DNA from: Thauera terpenica 58Eu
Lineage (GTDB): Bacteria; Pseudomonadota; Gammaproteobacteria; Burkholderiales; Rhodocyclaceae
NCBI RefSeq assembly: GCF_000443165.1
Contig: NZ_ATJV01000103.1
Location: 1 to 64,000 of the forward strand
Direction: 5' to 3'
Length of the DNA stretch: 64,000 nt
The translations under genes and the position numbers were made by a program. The notes beneath the pieces were generated by a model. The model was not told the origin of the DNA. It did no database searches and saw nothing but the letters and a program-made list of their open reading frames with translations. Shown here one piece after another: positions 3,814 to 54,871 of the stretch; the stretch's first letter is position 1; each line of letters begins with the position of its first letter.

Positions 3814-4905
3814 TCAGACGTTGAACAAAAAGTTCAACACATCCCCATCCTTGACCACGTATTCCTTGCCTTCGGCGCGCATCTTGCCGGCTTCCTTGGC
3901 GCCGGCTTCGCCCTTGTACTGGATGAAGTCGTCGAAGGCGATGGTCTGGGCGCGGATGAAGCCGCGTTCGAAGTCGGTGTGGATCACGCCTGCGGCCTGC
4001 GGGGCGGTGTCGCCGGCGTGGATGGTCCACGCGCGCACTTCCTTCACCCCGGCGGTGAAGTAGGTCTGCAGGCCGAGCAGCTTGTAGCCGGTGCGGATCA
4101 GGCGGTTGAGGCCGGGTTCTTCCAGGCCCATGGAGGCGAGGAAATCCGTTTTGTCGACGTCGTCGAGATCGGCAATCTCGGCCTCGATCGCGGCGCATAG
4201 GGCGACCACCTGCGCGCCCTCGGCGGCAGCGTGGGCACGCACGAGTTCGAGCTGGGGGTTATTGTCGAAGCCATCCTCGGCGACGTTGGCGGCATACAGC
4301 ACCGGTTTGGCGGTGATCAGGCAGAAGGGCTTGATGCTCGCCCATTCTTCCTTGGCCAGGTCCAGGGCGCGGATGCCCTTGCCCTGGTCGAGCTGGGCGA
4401 AGCATTTTTCCAGCACCGACACCAGGATCTTGGCTTCCTTGTCGCCGGAGGAGGCCGGGCGGCGGTAGCGTGCGAGCGCCTTCTCCACGGTCGCCATGTC
4501 GGCCAGGGCGAGCTCGGTGTCGATGATCTCGATGTCGCGCAGCGGGTCCACGCTGCCCGAGACGTGAATCACGTTGTCGTCGGTGAAGCAGCGCACCACG
4601 TGCACGATGGCGTCGGTTTCGCGGATGTTGGCGAGGAACTGGTTGCCCAGACCTTCGCCCTTGGAGGCGCCGGCGACCAGGCCGGCGATGTCGACAAACT
4701 CGACGATCGCCGGCTGCACCTTCTGCGGCTTGACGATGGCAGATAGCGCGTCCAGGCGGGCGTCGGGCACTTCAACGATGCCCACGTTGGGCTCGATGGT
4801 GCAGAAGGGATAGTTCTCGGCCTGGATGCCGGCCTTGGTGAGGGCGTTGAACAAGGTGGACTTGCCGACGTTGGGCAGGCCGACGATTCCGCATTTCAGG
4901 CTCAT
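3814..4905 (-). CDS. ychF: Ribosome-binding ATPase YchF (OLA1 family)
   Basis: A 363-residue OLA1/YchF protein, the usual family length. The start at 4905 gives [17 protein letters not shown] at the N-terminus; an in-frame ATG at 5001 would add an unconserved extension. G1 is GLPNVGKS, the G3 region reads DIAGLVAGA, and the C-terminal TGS domain ends in the conserved [11 protein letters not shown]. The family binds ribosomes, prefers ATP over GTP, and affects translation and the oxidative stress response. It normally lies beside pth, as here apart from the intervening gene at 5095. It borders the integrated element on its 3' side. Confidence 0.96.
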
Positions 4906-22199: not shown

Positions 22200-22283
22200 A
22201 TTTCAGGTGTTCGCCCCCACGTGGGTGTGATCGCCTGTCGCGATGTCGTGTCGCTGACGGGGTCTTGGCTGAAATGGCTGGTG

Positions 22284-22320
22284 ATAGCAATTTACAATCA
22301 AGAGTATCTTGATTATCAAT
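22284..22320 (+). promoter_or_regulatory. OxyR-type operator upstream of ahpC
   Basis: Four tetranucleotides occur at exact 11-base spacing: ATAG (22284), CAAT (22295), ATCT (22306) and CAAT (22317). This fits the OxyR arrangement of ATAG/CTAT-like elements on one DNA face. It lies 84 bases before the ahpC start, in a locally AT-rich stretch. Peroxide induction by OxyR is the inference. Confidence 0.6.
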
Positions 22321-47557: not shown

Positions 47558-49519
47558 TCAAAAGATCAGCCGCAGGCCGTGGTTGAGCACGCCACCGATG
47601 AAGAAGGCGGTGGGGATGATCATCGCCAGCATCAGCGCTGCGACCCTCAGGCCCTGCTCCTTGACGATCATCATCAGACTGGCGATGCAGGGCACGAACA
47701 GGGTGATGGTCACCATGCCGACCACCGCCTGTACCATGTCGAGCTGGCTTTGCAGCGCAAACAGTCCGCTGGCGCCAAAGTCGCGGCGCAGAAAGCCCAT
47801 CACGAAGGCGGCGCTGGCCTCCGGCGGCAGACCCAGCCAGCCCACCACCAGCGGCTTGCCGGCTTCGATGATCCACGGCAGCGCGCCGCTGCGGTCGAGC
47901 CCGAACATGATCAGCGTGCCGATCAGGAACAGCGGGATGACCTCGATCAGATACCACTTCAGGCGGCCGCCGGTTTTCTTCAGCACATTGCCCAGCACCG
48001 GCATGCGCATCGGCGGCAGCTCGGTGATCAGCGGCACGCGCCGGCCGGGCACGACCTTGCTCGCCAGCCAGCCGGTAAACAGCAGCACCAGCACGATGGA
48101 CGCCACCCAGATCACCGTGGCGGTGAAGGAGATGCCACCGAGCAGGCCCAGCACCACGCCCAGTTGCGCCGAGCAGGGGATGGCCAGTGCCATCAGGTAG
48201 ATGGTGATCAGGCGTTCGCGCGGAGTGTGCAGGATGCGGGTGGTCAGCGTGGCCATGGTGACGCAGCCCAGACCCAGCACCATGGGCAGCACGGCACGAC
48301 CATTGAGGCCGATGACGGCGAACATGCGGTTGGCGATCACCGACAGGCGGGAGAAGTAGCCCGAGTCCTCGAGCACGCCGAAGGCGAGGAAGAAGGTGGT
48401 GACGATGGGCAGGATGAGCGCCAGCGCGTAAGTCATGCCCATCGTCCACAAGCCGTATTCGCCGACGAAGAGGTCGGCGAGCCAGGGTGTGGAGATGTGG
48501 CCGTGGACGAAGTCGACGATGGCCGGGTTGAGCACGCCGCCGAAGAAGTCTTCTTCCAGCAGCCCGACCAGGGTGCTGGCGCCGAAATCACCGACGAACA
48601 GATAGACCAGATAGAGCACGCCCAGCAGCATCGGCCAGCCCCACACGCGGTGCACCGCCACACGCCCGACCAGCATCGACAGCGTGCGGTCCTTGGCGCC
48701 GGCCTGCTGGGTGACCGTGCGCGCGAGGGCCTCGGCCGCGGCGCTGCGCTGGCGTGCCAGCCGCGCGGGCAAGGTGTCGCGACCGGTGGGCGCGGTGAGT
48801 GCGGCGAGCGCCTCACGCACCGGGGCGCCGCCGGGCTGGGCAGCGAGCCAGGCATCGACCTCGGCGTCGCGGCCGATGCCCAGAATGGCCAGGCCGCGCG
48901 CGGCCAGCAGCGGATGCGGGCAGTGCGTGAGGATCAAGTCTTCGACTGCCGTGATCCGGGACTCCAGCGCCTCGTCATAGCGCAGCAGCGGCGCGGGGAT
49001 GGCCGCGTGCGCCAGCGCGTCGGTGAGCGCGCCCATGCCTTCACCGCCGGTCGCCACCGTCGCCACCACTGGAAGGGCAAGGGCCTCGGCCAGGGTGGCG
49101 GTATCTACGCTGACACCGCGCGCCCTGGCTTCGTCGCTCATGTTCAGCGCCAGCACCATCGGCACGCCGAGTTCGGCCAGCAGCGCGGTGAGGTTGAGCG
49201 TGCGGCGCAGGTTCTTGGCATCGCCGACCTGGATCAGGGTGCGCATGTTCTCGTTGAGCAGCGCGCGCATGGTGGCGCGCTCGTCGTCACTGCGCGAGGG
49301 CAGAGCCAGCACTCCGGGGGTGTCGAGCAGCGAGACCTCACGGTCAAAGCGCGGCGTGGCGCGCGACACCTCAACCGTGGTGCCGGGGTAGTTCGACACC
49401 GTGACGTAGGTGCCGGTGAGGCGATGGAAGAGCACGGACTTGCCGACGTTGGGGTGGCCGACGAGCGCGAGGGTGCGCATTGGATTGGAGAAGGTGGACA
49501 GTGAGGCGGCGTGGCTCAT
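47558..49519 (-). CDS. feoB: Ferrous iron transporter FeoB
   Basis: A 653-residue FeoB, at the short end of the family. The N-terminal G domain has GHPNVGKS (21-28), DTPGV and NMSD. It is followed by a membrane domain with two Gate regions and the GLGCVTMATLTTRILHTPRE block. It imports ferrous iron at the inner membrane under low oxygen. The start at 49519 lies 13 codons before an alternative Met at the G1 strand; family starts vary. An FNR-like site and -10 lie upstream. Confidence 0.96.
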   Translation of the reverse strand: MSHAASLSTFSNPMRTLALVGHPNVGKSVLFHRLTGTYVTVSNYPGTTVEVSRATPRFDREVSLLDTPGVLALPSRSDDERATMRALLNENMRTLIQVGDAKNLRRTLNLTALLAELGVPMVLALNMSDEARARGVSVDTATLAEALALPVVATVATGGEGMGALTDALAHAAIPAPLLRYDEALESRITAVEDLILTHCPHPLLAARGLAILGIGRDAEVDAWLAAQPGGAPVREALAALTAPTGRDTLPARLARQRSAAAEALARTVTQQAGAKDRTLSMLVGRVAVHRVWGWPMLLGVLYLVYLFVGDFGASTLVGLLEEDFFGGVLNPAIVDFVHGHISTPWLADLFVGEYGLWTMGMTYALALILPIVTTFFLAFGVLEDSGYFSRLSVIANRMFAVIGLNGRAVLPMVLGLGCVTMATLTTRILHTPRERLITIYLMALAIPCSAQLGVVLGLLGGISFTATVIWVASIVLVLLFTGWLASKVVPGRRVPLITELPPMRMPVLGNVLKKTGGRLKWYLIEVIPLFLIGTLIMFGLDRSGALPWIIEAGKPLVVGWLGLPPEASAAFVMGFLRRDFGASGLFALQSQLDMVQAVVGMVTITLFVPCIASLMMIVKEQGLRVAALMLAMIIPTAFFIGGVLNHGLRLIF

Positions 49520-49557
49520 GGATCAGCTTGGGCGCATGTGCGGGGATGTGCGTCGAA

Positions 49558-49598
49558 ATGATACGCGCTCGCATTAACAGTCAACTGATCCAGCTCAA
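49558..49598 (-). promoter_or_regulatory. FNR-like site and -10 upstream of feoB
   Basis: On the minus strand TTGAGCTGGATCAG (49598-49585) matches the FNR consensus TTGAT-N4-ATCAA at eight of ten positions. TATCAT (49563-49558) lies 31 bases downstream centre to centre, as at class II FNR promoters (-41.5). This suggests anaerobic activation of feoBA, as known for E. coli feo. Confidence 0.5.
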
Positions 49599-49833
49599 AT
49601 TCCGGCGAAATTTTGCGCTGCAGCACTCCGCGCTCTGCCAACCGGGTGCTGCACGCAGGTTTGTCCGGCGCTGCGGCCAGTCGTGAGCGCGCACGAATTC
49701 GTGCATGGACGGTTCGTGCCGAGCACCAGGGTGCTTGGTGAGCCCTGTTGCGGCGGGATTCCGCTGCGCGGTGGCGGGGCGAAAGTGTGCTGTGCTTGAG
49801 CTTCGTTGCGGGAGCGCTCGGAATCAAAAAACC

Positions 49834-49862
49834 TTGACACGGCTCTCGCCTTGATTGATATT
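49834..49862 (+). promoter_or_regulatory. Promoter of the small peptide gene
   Basis: A consensus -35 TTGACA (49834-49839), a 17-base spacer and GATATT (49857-49862) as -10. The Fur-like palindrome starts inside the -10. Confidence 0.6.
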
Positions 49863-49878
49863 GCGAATCGTTCGCAAT
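49860..49878. promoter_or_regulatory. Fur-like palindrome
   Basis: ATTGCGAA TCG TTCGCAAT has two perfect 8-base arms. Together with flanking GAT it resembles Fur boxes of betaproteobacteria, and it overlaps the -10 of the promoter above, a position that would block RNA polymerase. Confidence 0.55.
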
Positions 49879-49903
49879 TGAGCCTCGCCCTCGGAGCACA
49901 CAG

Positions 49904-49972
49904 ATGAGCAAGAAATGTTGCAAGAAGGACAAGCCCTGCAAGGGCTGTCCGAAGTTGAAGAAAAAGAAGTAG
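49904..49972 (+). CDS. 22-residue Cys/Lys-rich peptide
   Basis: A complete ORF of 23 codons. The product begins MSKKCCKKDKPCKGCPK and ends in five further residues, four of them Lys. It has four Cys (5, 6, 12, 15) in the pattern CC-x5-C-x2-C and about ten Lys, so it could bind a metal or nucleic acid. GGAG lies eight bases before the ATG. A consensus promoter overlapped by a Fur-like palindrome lies just upstream, and the TonB receptor gene follows after 142 bases. I do not know a characterised family for it. The codon use fits the host. Confidence 0.65.
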   Translation: MSKKCCKKDKPCKGCPKLKKKK

Positions 49973-50013
49973 TCGCGGAGCTGAGCGCGGGGCAGATTTG
50001 ATCGATATTAAAA

Positions 50014-50066
50014 CGTAATGATTCGTATTTGTTTATCGTGCCGCTCCTTGAATCAGAATCATTCCG
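50014..50066 (+). promoter_or_regulatory. Two Fur-like boxes before the TonB receptor gene
   Basis: CGTAATGATTCGTATTTGT (50014-50032) and TTGAATCAGAATCATTCCG (50048-50066) match the 19-base Fur consensus GATAATGATAATCATTATC at about 10 and 11 positions. They lie 49-101 bases before the start, suggesting iron repression. Confidence 0.45.
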
Positions 50067-50114
50067 AGCAAGCCAGCCGCCGCCAGCCAGCTCATCGTCA
50101 CCATGGAGTCGCAG

Positions 50115-52175
50115 ATGAATTTGCACCCGTGCGCGCTGGCCCTCGCCCTTGTGGGCCTGGTTGGCGTTCCGTTTTCCAGCGCTCAGGCCGAGACGCTGCT
50201 CAATGCCCAGATCGTCACCGCCAATGGCTATGCCGCCGATGCGCAGGACACGCCACAGGCAGTGGAGGTGTTGCAGCCTGCAGGCGCTGATGCTGCGCTC
50301 GTGGGTGACTTGATGCGCTCAAAGCCGGGGCTGGCGGTGCAATCCGATGGCGCCTGGGGGCAGAACCCGGTGTTGCGCGGATTGAAGAAGGAAAGCGTGG
50401 TGGTGATGGTTGACGGCCTGCGCCTCAACTCCGCGCAACCGCAGGGCGCGATCGCCTCCTTCATGGATCTCGGCCTGCTCGAGCGGGTGGAGGTGGTGAA
50501 GGGGCCGGGTTCGGTGCTGTACGGCAGCGGCGCCATCGGCGGCGTGGTCAATCTGATCACGCCCGAGGCGCGCTTCACCACCGCAGACGAGCTTGGCGGT
50601 CGCGTCGGCGCGCGCTTCTCCAGCGTGGATAAAGGTGTGGCGGGCGCGCTGCTGGTGCAGCGCTCGAACGCCGATCACGCCCTGGTGCTGGGCGTGGCCG
50701 GGCGCGATGTGGATGACTATCGCAGCCCGGATGGACGCGAGGCGCGCACCGGCTACCAGTCGAACACCCTGCTGGCCAAGTACCGCCAGCGCCTCAACGA
50801 GGACATCAGCCTGCGCCTGAACTTGCAGCGCCACGCCGATGAAGACGTGTGGTACCCGGGCTCGGCGCGCAGCGGCGCCGGCATTCCGCGCCCGCTCGGG
50901 GTGGCGACCATCCATTCGCCCAAGCAGCGCCGCGAGCTCTATGAGGTGGGGATCGACGCCGCGATCGGCGAGGGCCAGTTGTCGGCTGAAGTCTATCGAC
51001 AGGAAGTGTTCCGCCAGATCCGCGCCCACGCATCGAACCTGGGCCGCGACTATGTGCGCAACGACGTCAGCTTCGTCACCGACGGCGCGCGTGCCAAGTA
51101 CATGTTTGCGTTCGGCGGCGGCCATCTGCTCAGCGTCGGTGCCGACACCTGGCGCATGAAGGGCGACCCCGAGCGCTATATGGACAACAACGCGCCCCTG
51201 TTCAACAACAATATGCGCAACGACCCGTTCTCCAGGGGCGAGATCGAAGCCGTCGGTGTCTTTGTGCAGGACGAATTCGAGCTCGGCCGCAGCCGCATCG
51301 TCGCTGGTGCGCGCTACGACCGCGTCAGTGGCGATGCAGCACAGAAAGGCCAGGGGCCGTCGGCGCAGACCACCGGCCTCGACCATAGCGACAACAATCT
51401 GTCGTGGTCGCTGGGGGTGATTCATCCGCTGACCGACAGCCTGAGTGCCTACGCCAATCTCGGCCGTGCCTACCGTGCCGCCGACATGCGCGAGCGCTTC
51501 GAGGATTCGGCGCGCGGCGATGGCTATTACCACGTCGGCAATCCGCAGCTCGATCCCGAAGTGTCGAGCAGCTTCGAGCTCGGCCTGAAGGCGGCGGGCA
51601 GCGGCCTGCAATACCGTCTGGCCGCCTTCTACACACGTATCGACGACTACGTGGCCGGTCGCATCACCGGGGCCACGCATGCGGGTAGCGGGCTGCCGCT
51701 CAAGCGCACCGAGAACCTCGACAAGGTGACGATCTACGGCCTCGAAGGCAGCGCCAGCCTGCCGCTGGGGGTTTTCGTGACCGACGCCAGCTTCACCTGG
51801 CTGCGCGGCAAGAATCACCAGGACGACGAAGCCCTGTATCAGATGCCCGCCCCTGAGCTCACGCTCGGCATCGGCCAGCCGGCACAGCGCGGCTTCTATT
51901 GGCGTGCGCAGCTGCGCGCGGTGGCCGAGCAGGACCGTGTCGCCACGCGCTTCTCCAATGGCACGGAAGACGCCACCGCCGGCTTCGTCACCGCCGACGC
52001 CGAGCTCGGCTGGCGCTTCGGTGCGCTCGCTGCCTTCGATGCCACCACGCTTGCAGTGGGTGTGCACAACCTGGCCGACAAGCGCTACCACGAGCATCTG
52101 AGCGAGGGCGTCTCCGGCCGCGAGCTGGCTGCGCCCGGTCGGGGCATCACGCTGAGCCTTTCCGGGAGTTTCTGA
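50115..52175 (+). CDS. TonB-dependent outer-membrane receptor
   Basis: A 686-residue receptor. A signal peptide (MNLHPCALALALVGLVGVPF, cleavage near SAQAE) precedes a plug domain (PGLAVQSDGAWGQNPVLRGL, RVEVVKGPGSVLYGSGAIGG) and a 22-strand-type barrel ending LSLSGSF with a C-terminal Phe. The start at 50115 has GGAG five bases upstream; an ATG four codons earlier is possible. It looks closest to heme/siderophore or cobalamin-type receptors. It is followed with one base between stop and start by an ABC importer, so they likely handle the same ligand. Confidence 0.93.
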   Translation: MNLHPCALALALVGLVGVPFSSAQAETLLNAQIVTANGYAADAQDTPQAVEVLQPAGADAALVGDLMRSKPGLAVQSDGAWGQNPVLRGLKKESVVVMVDGLRLNSAQPQGAIASFMDLGLLERVEVVKGPGSVLYGSGAIGGVVNLITPEARFTTADELGGRVGARFSSVDKGVAGALLVQRSNADHALVLGVAGRDVDDYRSPDGREARTGYQSNTLLAKYRQRLNEDISLRLNLQRHADEDVWYPGSARSGAGIPRPLGVATIHSPKQRRELYEVGIDAAIGEGQLSAEVYRQEVFRQIRAHASNLGRDYVRNDVSFVTDGARAKYMFAFGGGHLLSVGADTWRMKGDPERYMDNNAPLFNNNMRNDPFSRGEIEAVGVFVQDEFELGRSRIVAGARYDRVSGDAAQKGQGPSAQTTGLDHSDNNLSWSLGVIHPLTDSLSAYANLGRAYRAADMRERFEDSARGDGYYHVGNPQLDPEVSSSFELGLKAAGSGLQYRLAAFYTRIDDYVAGRITGATHAGSGLPLKRTENLDKVTIYGLEGSASLPLGVFVTDASFTWLRGKNHQDDEALYQMPAPELTLGIGQPAQRGFYWRAQLRAVAEQDRVATRFSNGTEDATAGFVTADAELGWRFGALAAFDATTLAVGVHNLADKRYHEHLSEGVSGRELAAPGRGITLSLSGSF

Positions 52176-52176
52176 C

Positions 52177-53208
52177 ATGCAATCACCACGTCCGCCCCTG
52201 CCGAGCTGGAGCCGCTTCGTCCTGCATGCGTGCGTGGTGCTGGCGTTTCTGATCGTCACCGGCACCGCCGACGCACAGAAGCTGCCCAAGCTGACGCTGG
52301 CCGGTCCGCCGGCCTCGGTGTCGAACCCGCTCATTCACATGGTCGATTCCGGCGCGCTGGCCGATGTCGCCGAGCGCGTCGAGTTCGTGCTCTGGCGCGA
52401 CCCTGACCAGCTGCGGGTGATGGCGCTCGATGGCCGTGCCGACGTGCTGGCGATGCCGACCAATGTCGCCGCCAACCTCCATAACCGCGGCGCAAAGTTG
52501 CAGCTGCTCAATGTGTCGACCTGGGGCGTGTTGTGGCTGGTGTCGCGCGACCCGACGCTGAAGTCGCTCGCTGATCTGCGTGGCAAGGAGCTGGCGGTGC
52601 CTTTCCGCGGCGACATGCCCGACATCGTGTTTCAGCTCCTGGCGGAGCAGCAAGGCGTCGACCTGCGCAAGGACGTGCAGCTGCGCTACGTGGCTAGCCC
52701 GATCGACGCCATGCAGCTGCTGGTGATGCGCCGCGTCGATCATGCCTTGCTGGCCGAACCGGCGGTGTCGATGGCCTTGCGCAAGACCGGCTCCTTTCCG
52801 CTCAGTGTGATTGCGCCCGAACTGCATCGCAGCGTGGACCTGCAGCAGGAGTGGGGGCGGGTGTTCGCGCGTAGCGCCCGTATCCCGCAGGCGGGCATTG
52901 CGGTGATGGGAGCCTTGCGTGAGCGCCCCGATGTGGTCGCTCGCATCGAAGCCGAATATGCGCGCTCGCTGGCCTGGTGCCGCGACCACGCCGAGGCCTG
53001 CGGCCAGGGTGTGGCCGCCCGCATCGACATGCTCAGCGCCGAGGCGGTGGCCGATTCGATCGCGGTGAGTCAGATGGACGCGGTGCCGGCACATGCTGCG
53101 CGCGCCGAGCTCGAGTTCATGTTCGGCCAGCTGATGAAGAAGAGCCCGGCGCTGATCGGCGGCAAGCTGCCCGACGACGGCTTCTATGGCGGAGCCGGCG
53201 CGCAATGA
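52177..53208 (+). CDS. NitT/TauT-type ABC substrate-binding protein
   Basis: A 343-residue periplasmic protein with signal peptide (about 34 residues, ending GTADAQK) and an NMT1/SsuA-like fold (KLTLAGPPASVSNPLIHMVD, then LRGKELAVPFRGDMPDIVFQ and YVASPIDAMQLLVMRRVDHA). The family normally delivers nitrate, sulfonates or thiamine precursors. Here it follows a TonB receptor by one base and precedes its permease, so the ligand may be a metal chelate. No specificity residue can be read. Confidence 0.87.
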   Translation: MQSPRPPLPSWSRFVLHACVVLAFLIVTGTADAQKLPKLTLAGPPASVSNPLIHMVDSGALADVAERVEFVLWRDPDQLRVMALDGRADVLAMPTNVAANLHNRGAKLQLLNVSTWGVLWLVSRDPTLKSLADLRGKELAVPFRGDMPDIVFQLLAEQQGVDLRKDVQLRYVASPIDAMQLLVMRRVDHALLAEPAVSMALRKTGSFPLSVIAPELHRSVDLQQEWGRVFARSARIPQAGIAVMGALRERPDVVARIEAEYARSLAWCRDHAEACGQGVAARIDMLSAEAVADSIAVSQMDAVPAHAARAELEFMFGQLMKKSPALIGGKLPDDGFYGGAGAQ

Positions 53209-53996
53209 GCCTGCTGCGCGCCTGGCTGGCCGGTCTGCCCGCCTACCTGTGGAGTGGCTGGGGGGCGATCGCCAGCCTGTTCCTGCTGCTCGCCGCATGG
53301 GAGACGGTGAGCCTGCTCTACGGCCCCTTGGTGATGCCCGCTCCACGCGCGGCGTTCGCGACCCTGCTCGGTCTGATCGACAGCGGCGCCGCCTGGCCGG
53401 AGCTGGCGATTACCGCGCGTCGCGCCATGAGCGGCTATGCGCTGGCGGTGATCGCCGGCAGCGTGCTGGGTTTGCTGGCCGGGCTGTCGATGACGGCGTC
53501 GATGATGTCGCGTCCGCTCGTCACCGTGCTCATGGGCACGCCGCCCATCGCCTGGCTGGTGCTGGCCATGTTGTGGTTTGGCGCCAGCGACGGCACGCCG
53601 GTATTTACCGTGTTCGTCGCCGCCTTTCCGGTGATCTTCATCGGTGCGCTGCAGGGCACGCGCACGCTCGACAACCAGCTCTTCGGCATGGCCGAGGCCT
53701 TCCGCCTGCCGCGGCGCATGATGCTCACCGACGTCTATCTGCCGCATGTGGTTTCCTATCTGTTCCCAGCCTGGATTGCTGCGCTTGGCACCGCGTGGAA
53801 GGTGGTGGTGATGGCCGAGCTGCTCGCCACCCAGGATGGGGTGGGGGCGGCTCTGGCAGTGTCGCGCTCGCATCTGGACACCGCAGCGACGATGGCCTGG
53901 ATCGTGGCCCTGGTGGGCTTGTTGCTGGCGGTGGAGTATCTGCTGCTGGAGCCGATCAAGCGTGAGGTCGAGCGCTGGCGGGAGCATGCGGCATGA
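53205..53996 (+). CDS. NitT/TauT-type ABC permease
   Basis: A 263-residue permease with about six membrane segments and the EAA-type loop (GMAEAFRLPRRMMLTDVYLP). It belongs to the BPD_transp_1/SsuC family. It begins in an ATGA overlap with the binding-protein gene and ends in one with the ATPase gene. Confidence 0.92.
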   Translation: MSLLRAWLAGLPAYLWSGWGAIASLFLLLAAWETVSLLYGPLVMPAPRAAFATLLGLIDSGAAWPELAITARRAMSGYALAVIAGSVLGLLAGLSMTASMMSRPLVTVLMGTPPIAWLVLAMLWFGASDGTPVFTVFVAAFPVIFIGALQGTRTLDNQLFGMAEAFRLPRRMMLTDVYLPHVVSYLFPAWIAALGTAWKVVVMAELLATQDGVGAALAVSRSHLDTAATMAWIVALVGLLLAVEYLLLEPIKREVERWREHAA

Positions 53997-54871
53997 CACG
54001 CAGCGAACTGCGGGTGAGCGCGCTCAACCATGCTTTCGGCCGCGATGAGGTGCTCGCGGGCATCGACTTTCGTGTGCGTGCCGGCGAAGTGCTTGCCCTG
54101 GTCGGGCCCTCGGGTTGCGGCAAGACCACGCTGCTGCATCTGGCGGCGGGCTTGCTGACGGTGCAGCAGGGGCAGGTTGCCAATGGCTTTGCCAGCACCG
54201 CCTTCATGTTTCAGCAAGCGCGCCTGCTGCCGTGGAAGAGCGCGCTCGACAACATCGCGCTCGGTCTCAAGGCGGCAGGCCTGAAGCGCGACGAGCGCCA
54301 CTTTCGCGCCCGTGAGCTCGCCTTGCGCCTCGGACTGTCGCATCGCGACCTCGACAAGTTTCCGCACCAGCTCTCGGGCGGCATGCAAAGCCGGGTGGCC
54401 CTGGCGCGTGCGCTGGTGCTGGAGCCGGAACTGTTGCTACTCGACGAGCCGTTCTCGGCGCTCGATGTCGGCCTCAAGGAAGAGCTCTACCGCCTGCTGC
54501 TCGAGCAGCAGGCGGCGCGCAGCATGGGTGTGTTGATGATCACCCATGACCTCATGGAAGCGGTGCGGCTGTCGGACGCCATTCTCGTCATGGCCGCCGA
54601 ACCGGGGCGCATCGTGTGTCGATTCGAACTCGGCGTGCCCGCGGCGCAGCGTGACGAGCTGTGGGTCTACCAGCATACCGCCGAGCTGCTGCAAAGCGCC
54701 GCGGTGCGCGCCAGCTTCGGCCTGCCGCCCGTGGTGCAGGGCGCAGGCAGACGCGTCGCAGCCGGCACGAACAGCGTCAGCATGAACCTGATGGGGACGA
54801 ACCCCGGGCTGCGCCTGGTGGTGCCAGCCCAGCCCGCACTGACGGCCCGCACGGGCCCGCGCTGCGGCTGA
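53993..54871 (+). CDS. NitT/TauT-type ABC ATPase
   Basis: A 292-residue ATPase with Walker A GPSGCGKTTLL, signature LSGGMQSRVALARA, Walker B LLLLDEPFSALD and H-loop MITHDLMEAV. The C-terminal about 50 residues (after PVVQGAGRR) are not part of the ABC fold and are low complexity. The stop shares a base with the nnrS start (TGATG). The ATPase drives the importer encoded by the two preceding genes. Confidence 0.93.
   Translation: MTRSELRVSALNHAFGRDEVLAGIDFRVRAGEVLALVGPSGCGKTTLLHLAAGLLTVQQGQVANGFASTAFMFQQARLLPWKSALDNIALGLKAAGLKRDERHFRARELALRLGLSHRDLDKFPHQLSGGMQSRVALARALVLEPELLLLDEPFSALDVGLKEELYRLLLEQQAARSMGVLMITHDLMEAVRLSDAILVMAAEPGRIVCRFELGVPAAQRDELWVYQHTAELLQSAAVRASFGLPPVVQGAGRRVAAGTNSVSMNLMGTNPGLRLVVPAQPALTARTGPRCG

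Follow-up and report, generated by a model that had tools for sequence, protein, structure and literature searches.

A conserved 22-codon Cys/Lys-rich gene behind a Fur-type operator in Thauera and its association with a motif-free uS4 paralogue

A 22-codon open reading frame in the window, the 64,000-nucleotide stretch of Thauera DNA analysed here, is, on its codon pattern among relatives, a genuine conserved gene, and to judge from the sequence its expression is probably induced by iron scarcity. Comparison with relatives is what marks the frame as more than a chance ORF. The micropeptide family to which it belongs is real and is absent from the family libraries searched, and its recognition in the initial annotation was a good catch. 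It adds a family of roughly 20-residue genes, conserved at the codon level, to the probable Thauera iron regulon.

The peptide gene and its setting in the window

The initial annotation had described a complete tiny ORF with the pattern CC-x5-C-x2-C and about ten Lys, equipped with a ribosome-binding site, a TTGACA-N17-GATATT promoter and a Fur-like palindrome on the -10, and located between feoB and a TonB receptor. All of these elements were recovered, the Lys count being 11, at the following positions.

47558-49519, - strand: feoB, ferrous iron transporter (Pfam-confirmed), part of the context of the peptide ORF
49557-49575, - strand: Fur-type site 5' of the divergent feoB (consensus scan)
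49834-49839, + strand: -35 element TTGACA; all 11 Thauera promoters in the alignment share TTGAC
49854-49878, + strand: putative Fur-type operator covering the -10 (consensus scan, promoter alignment)
49857-49862, + strand: -10 element GATATT, N17 after the -35, sharing 4 of 6 bases with TATAAT
49893-49896, + strand: GGAG ribosome-binding site, 7 nt 5' of the peptide ATG
49904-49972, + strand: peptide ORF, 22 codons (direct reading and ORF list; orthologues; purifying selection)
50011-50029, + strand: second Fur-type site, between the peptide and the TonB receptor
50103-52175, + strand: TonB-dependent receptor (Pfam-confirmed), part of the context of the peptide ORF

The encoded product, MSKKCCKKDKPCKGCPKLKKKK, contains 11 Lys, 4 Cys and a single acidic residue among its 22 residues, with the Cys arranged as C5-C6-x5-C12-x2-C15. 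It had no match in Pfam or NCBIfam at E<=1, and five peptides from relatives had none in Pfam at E<=10. Searches of PDB sequences with the peptide and of plasmids by tblastn with a consensus-like peptide gave no match at E<=10, and an Rfam scan of 49400-50300 gave none at E<=1. Titles and abstracts of the literature, in which subscription journals are thinly covered, yielded nothing on this peptide or on Fur control of uS4.

Operators were scored against assumed Fur and Zur-like consensus strings. The operator over the -10 includes a perfect palindrome with 8-bp arms, ATTGCGAA-TCG-TTCGCAAT, at 49860-49878, and its best-scoring register against the Fur consensus is 49854-49872. Because 13 inverted repeats with 8-bp arms and spacers of <=4 are listed in the 64 kb (several overlapping, and the one at 49860 among them), the palindrome on its own is weak evidence; what counts for a Fur operator is its match to the Fur consensus together with its conservation. 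Sites scoring >=12 against this consensus numbered 5 in the 64-kb window versus 1.4 expected from 20 Markov simulations, and three of the top five (49557, 49854 and 50011) sit within 475 bp. The site between the peptide and the TonB receptor is present in all five aligned loci where that receptor comes next. Control by Zur in place of Fur was considered and rejected, the Zur-like consensus scoring below the Fur consensus in both window regions. The other two of the top five sites overlap one another within 22280-22320 (22296 and 22302), and one of them is an inverted repeat with 8-bp arms.

Matches to the peptide occur in 13 of 29 Thauera genomes, the window's own included; since 16 lack a match, the peptide is dispensable. 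The codon test covered a 14-codon core in 14 Thauera copies (9 distinct haplotypes) and gave a pS of 0.40 and a pN of 0.030, hence a pN/pS of 0.075; widening the comparison to all 21 copies read (16 distinct) gives 0.22. The initial annotation had held that its reading would fall if a synonymous/nonsynonymous comparison showed no conservation, and in this comparison conservation was seen. Variable sites in the Thauera core number 2, 1 and 8 at codon positions 1, 2 and 3 (p=0.009), or 0, 1 and 8 (p=0.001) when the second G011 copy is left out. Pairwise identity averages 0.93 within the core versus 0.41 upstream and 0.40 downstream (60-nt flanks), GGAG precedes 14 of 14 Thauera copies read, and the stop codon differs among copies (TAG, TGA, TAA). 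Within the genome_contigs collection, 11 records, every one from Thauera, carry the core signature C-x-x-DKPCKGCP in exact form, a count that possibly does not include the window's own record. T. aminoaromatica S2 and T. linaloolentis are among the carriers of the gene. An accidental frame within a Fur-regulated leader would suit the very short ORF and its lack of a library match; set against the pN/pS, the third-position bias, a ribosome-binding site in all 14 Thauera copies, the diverged flanks, and the recurrence of the exact core signature, such an origin is hardly credible, and the codon pattern in effect refutes a non-coding reading.

Only three Cys are invariant across the 21 copies, since one copy from G011 (G011b) has Arg at the leading position of the CC pair. 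This genome carries two copies about 1 kb apart (L080:201-1331), one 5' of a gene that is DUF6746-like by likeness and the other 5' of a TonB receptor.

Promoter history and the uS4 paralogue

Turning to other Thauera, ten genomes carry a TTGAC...GATATTGCGAATCATTCGCA-like element 1.06-1.31 kb 5' of the peptide ATG, and TTGAC with a Fur-type operator is present in all 11 aligned promoters, the window row included. Behind the promoter, the cluster usually runs from ORF1 through a motif-free uS4 paralogue (S4') and an ORF3-like frame to the peptide, all co-directional, and we infer that the peptide is probably co-transcribed with the cluster in these relatives. ORF1 was read in at least seven of the ten cluster-bearing Thauera; judged from its spacing, with the operator 112 bp 5' of S4', G008 is without it. 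ORF3 was read in part of the ten. Neither frame has a Pfam match (L083:2927-3217; frame after S4' in L082, 98 aa). A further Fur-type site lies 3' of the peptide, ahead of a TonB receptor or a DUF6746-type gene, the latter identified by Pfam in G004. An ORF3-like frame is also found 3' of S4' in G001 and G041.

Alignment of the window with G017 returned three collinear blocks, namely the feoB start, a 22-bp operator block (95%), and the peptide with its downstream region; the gap from operator to peptide is 25 bp in the window versus 1,278 in G017. The ORF1/S4'/ORF3 cluster is absent from the window, so that the promoter directly adjoins the peptide, and searches for remnants of the three genes gave best E values of 0.10-0.52, with none between feoB and the peptide. 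The window's genome has no S4 besides the canonical one. The wide occurrence of S4' in the family, 72 of 249 genomes at E<=1e-60, makes deletion of the cluster in the window lineage the simplest account of these comparisons, the alternative being an insertion in the other Thauera. G001 is the mirror image of the window, with the S4' cluster and promoter and no peptide, so peptide and S4' are not obligate partners. In G020, about 17.6 kb of a shared contig separates the two.

Among the 29 Thauera, 11 genomes hold both peptide and S4', 2 the peptide only (the window genome and G011, which is 68% complete), 2 S4' only (G001 and G023) and 14 neither (Fisher p=1.5e-4, kinship ignored). The S4' of G023 (G023:C87:25998-26605) was matched in two overlapping pieces, in a frameshift-like manner, in an assembly with a listed contamination of 8%. 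Across the family draw, S4' occurs in 10 of 12 peptide genomes versus 62 of 237 others (p=9.8e-5, kinship ignored; G468 counted among the 237, and both 249-genome draws taken as one set from their listed handles). S4' is present in six of the seven non-Thauera peptide genomes, either on a different contig from the peptide or at a distance of 1.6 Mb.

The assignment of S4' to the uS4 family is illustrated by the G014 copy, which matches NF003717 (E 7.6e-73) and TIGR01017 (E 5.9e-71), both above cut-off. The canonical S4 of the window genome (G000) bears an N-terminal C-x2-C-x13-C-x4-C; canonical copies of other genomes were matched by search, the four-Cys motif being read in G000 only. The S4' loci scanned were L064-L071, L087, L088 and L090-L115, and removal of two of these 36 loci, whose N-terminus was not recovered by pattern, left a set of 34. 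All 34 copies, read at the N-terminus, are without the four-cysteine motif and have 0-2 Cys in total; the ten Thauera copies among them have zero, and the G004 copy, outside that set, has one. In 31 of the 34 loci, the best Fur-type site within 700 bp upstream was equalled by <=2 of 100 Markov shuffles, a span that may take in the operator of a neighbouring gene, an example being the sites around -500 in three Thauera close to feoB. The Fur-type score was >=14 in 27 of the loci, and L103, L106 and L114 had no Fur-type site in the 700 bp 5' of S4'. Zur control was again rejected, the Zur-like consensus giving the lower of the two scores in 31 of 34 upstream regions. One genome from a different family within the order likewise has a Fur-type site 5' of S4' (L089, ~4421-4440).

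In its passages on uS4, PMC3087516 distinguishes C+ (zinc) from C- (non-zinc) paralogues and reports no Zur sites near S4 paralogues. The S4' copies resemble such C-/C+ pairs, in that a motif-free copy accompanies a canonical four-Cys uS4 encoded at another place in the same genome; whereas that paper looked for Zur sites near S4 paralogues and found none, the sites seen here look Fur-type. In PMC6555806, the uS4 zinc finger of the Thermus ribosome is reported to carry an Fe4S4 cluster. Fur control of the motif-free uS4 would fit both this cluster and the missing Zur sites (PMC6555806, PMC3087516), and the upstream Fur-type sites point to an answer to the question, dating from 2009, of what controls motif-free uS4 paralogues (PMC3087516, as far as its uS4 passages go), one that agrees with the later Thermus report (PMC6555806, in the part on uS4). 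The Fur-boxed motif-free uS4 may be a larger finding than the peptide itself.

Members outside Thauera

Of 249 genomes drawn from the family, presumably Rhodocyclaceae in GTDB, 13 matched the peptide at E<=0.01, comprising 5 Thauera and 8 others. Reading of the DNA confirmed the peptide, as diverged members, in seven of the eight; the eighth, G468, was dropped because the Cys pattern was not recovered there. The confirmed forms are MSKKCCEKRKPCKGCPRQAGKGKEKKK, MSKKCCEKRKPCKRCPRQHKR, MSKKCCEKRKRCKACPRRRGRKGY and MSKKCCKSRKPCKNCPRQGK, two further forms of the type MAGKKKCCKK..KPCKDCPRRNK, and one of 51 residues that begins MAKKCCRSDPPCKHCPKR...

The peptide is divergent from a flavodoxin gene (Pfam) in G586 and from a flavodoxin look-alike (by likeness), with a TonB receptor nearby, in G608. 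In G558 it has a KatG-like peroxidase gene on one side and a ferritin/Dps-like gene on the other; it stands between a catalase and a redoxin in G343, and lies 3' of a TonB receptor and a 142-residue gene without a match in G524. In G574 it is 3' of genes for a zinc-type dehydrogenase and a LysR protein, and its neighbours in G545 look, by likeness, like those of G574. Judged by neighbour families, five of the seven loci appear to be iron or peroxide settings, and peroxide-defence genes adjoin the family in two genera; the initial annotation's account holds neither these neighbours nor the S4' cluster of ten other Thauera. A comparison of ORF1 with the small gene beside the flavodoxin in G586 and G608 gave no likeness worth claiming (E 0.57).

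The initial annotation had called for a search for small ORFs with this Cys pattern beside Fur sites in relatives. In Thauera such sites were found at all 11 promoters aligned; outside the genus the link to Fur is weak, a site scoring >=12 within 1.8 kb upstream being found for only one of seven copies (G586, 12.8 at -141). The sole Fur-type site of G608 lies inside or after the ORF (11.6 at +63) and that of G343 at -1739 (11.6), and G524, G574, G558 and G545 had no Fur-type site >=10.5 anywhere in the scanned span. Outside Thauera, the peptide may therefore be controlled from some other location or by a different regulator.

Wider draws produced no convincing member beyond the family in the class, order or phylum. 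In the class, 3 of 369 genomes matched at E<=0.01, namely the window's own and two partial matches (E 0.005 and 0.008) that were rejected, the Cys pattern being absent on both strands of each locus. In the phylum, the one match among 299 was the window's own genome. In the order, 10 of 399 matched at E<=0.1, of which its own and G343 were confirmed; the other eight, partial matches, were read on the plus strand alone.

Possible roles of the peptide

We favour, with some reserve and on the strength of comparative data, a genuine micro-gene whose product is a Fur-repressed, trans-acting tetrathiolate peptide of an iron-sparing response. The initial annotation had proposed a metal-binding or regulatory peptide made in iron starvation; it is borne out in part, for the short gene itself, its conserved promoter with a Fur-type operator and its place among iron-uptake genes. 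With sufficient iron, Fe-Fur would cover the -10 and block transcription; in iron starvation, the sigma-70 promoter would fire and a 22-residue cytosolic peptide would be translated. Its four thiols could form one tetrathiolate metal site per peptide, for Zn2+ or Fe2+, and the Lys-rich ends could tether it to an acidic partner (RNA, ribosome or protein), which would support the cell under iron starvation or peroxide stress. The peptide is the last gene of a Fur-boxed cluster with S4' in most peptide-bearing Thauera, and in the window strain, with those genes gone, it would be driven directly. Action in trans is most likely, because neighbours vary with no single downstream gene common to the loci, because a separate Fur-type site precedes the receptor, and because the two G011 copies stand in different contexts. 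A peptide of 22 residues may, on the other hand, bind metal too weakly to matter. Metallothioneins are likewise Cys-Lys-rich peptides with CC and CxxC, a likeness that rests on composition; unlike them, the window peptide has four Cys only, enough for at most one mononuclear site, and matches no metallothionein model in Pfam or NCBIfam.

Bacillus, which belongs to a different phylum from Thauera, has small basic proteins under Fur control. Among them, FbpB, of 48 aa, takes part in the iron-sparing response, and the mode of action of these proteins is itself described as unproven in the passages of PMC7430163 that deal with them. The window peptide may work somewhat like them, being very small and strongly basic (11 Lys and 1 acidic residue in 22), although membership is not claimed; as to Fur repression, a Fur-type operator covers the conserved promoter in Thauera and was not seen near six of seven other copies. 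The likeness is one of description, and the passages on FbpB in PMC7430163 mention no Cys motif, unlike what is seen here. A basic Cys knuckle that binds rRNA or an sRNA/mRNA, acting in this manner or accompanying ribosomes with the motif-free uS4, is possible if somewhat unlikely: 11 of 22 residues are Lys, the uS4 paralogue and the peptide share a strand and lie within ~1 kb of each other in 10 of 11 Thauera with both, and S4' is also present, unlinked, in six of seven non-Thauera peptide genomes, but S4' is missing from two carriers of the peptide, the window strain and G558, and members adjoin catalase, peroxidase/ferritin-like and alcohol dehydrogenase genes. A wider scheme, which we regard as rather doubtful, is a Fur-controlled iron-sparing ribosome programme in which an Fe4S4-type uS4 would be swapped for the motif-free uS4 in starvation, the peptide taking up released metal or cluster or sitting on the remodelled ribosome, and the window strain keeping the peptide part only.

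Two further alternatives are improbable, to a similar degree. The ORF could be a cis-acting, metal-sensing leader whose translation governs read-through into the TonB receptor, in the way that CruR acts on bfrG with copper; a short Cys-rich ORF with CxxC immediately 5' of a TonB receptor and this Bordetella precedent speak for it (PMC9426467, in its passages on CruR). As described there, CruR has 145 aa, is predicted to be exported, carries a CXXC and a C-terminal RAPP arrest motif, and responds to copper (PMC9426467). The resemblance lies in a Cys-containing ORF 5' of a TonB-dependent transporter gene and in the metal theme, and the window peptide has the CXXC (C12-K-G-C15); it departs from the other three of four features compared, having 22 aa with no Pfam match at E<=1 in place of a DUF2946 domain and ~145 aa, lacking RAPP, as do the 20 other copies, and not being overall the first gene of a controlled operon, though in the window it does precede the receptor first (PMC9426467, same passages). 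Also unlike CruR, it has a Fur-type promoter and varied neighbours, following S4' in ten other Thauera and peroxidase or catalase genes elsewhere. Such variation in downstream genes, the separate Fur-type site before the receptor in 5 of 5 aligned loci, and the conservation across contexts of residues rather than of a mere ORF all weigh against a leader. A peptide that served thiol redox chemistry or buffered peroxide, and bound metal only incidentally, would account for the peroxidase, ferritin-like, catalase and redoxin Pfam domains among neighbours in two genera; against it, the Thauera setting is one of iron uptake with Fur-type operators, and peroxide-type neighbours occur at only two of seven non-Thauera loci.

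As to the receptor next to the peptide in the window, its top NCBIfam match is a heme/hemoglobin receptor subfamily, with a score under the cut-off of that model. The region 3' of it (52177-54871) encodes a phosphonate/NMT1/SsuA-like substrate-binding protein followed by permease-like and ATPase-like ORFs, the latter two assigned by eye; judged in the same way, it would be an ABC transporter, to which no substrate is assigned.
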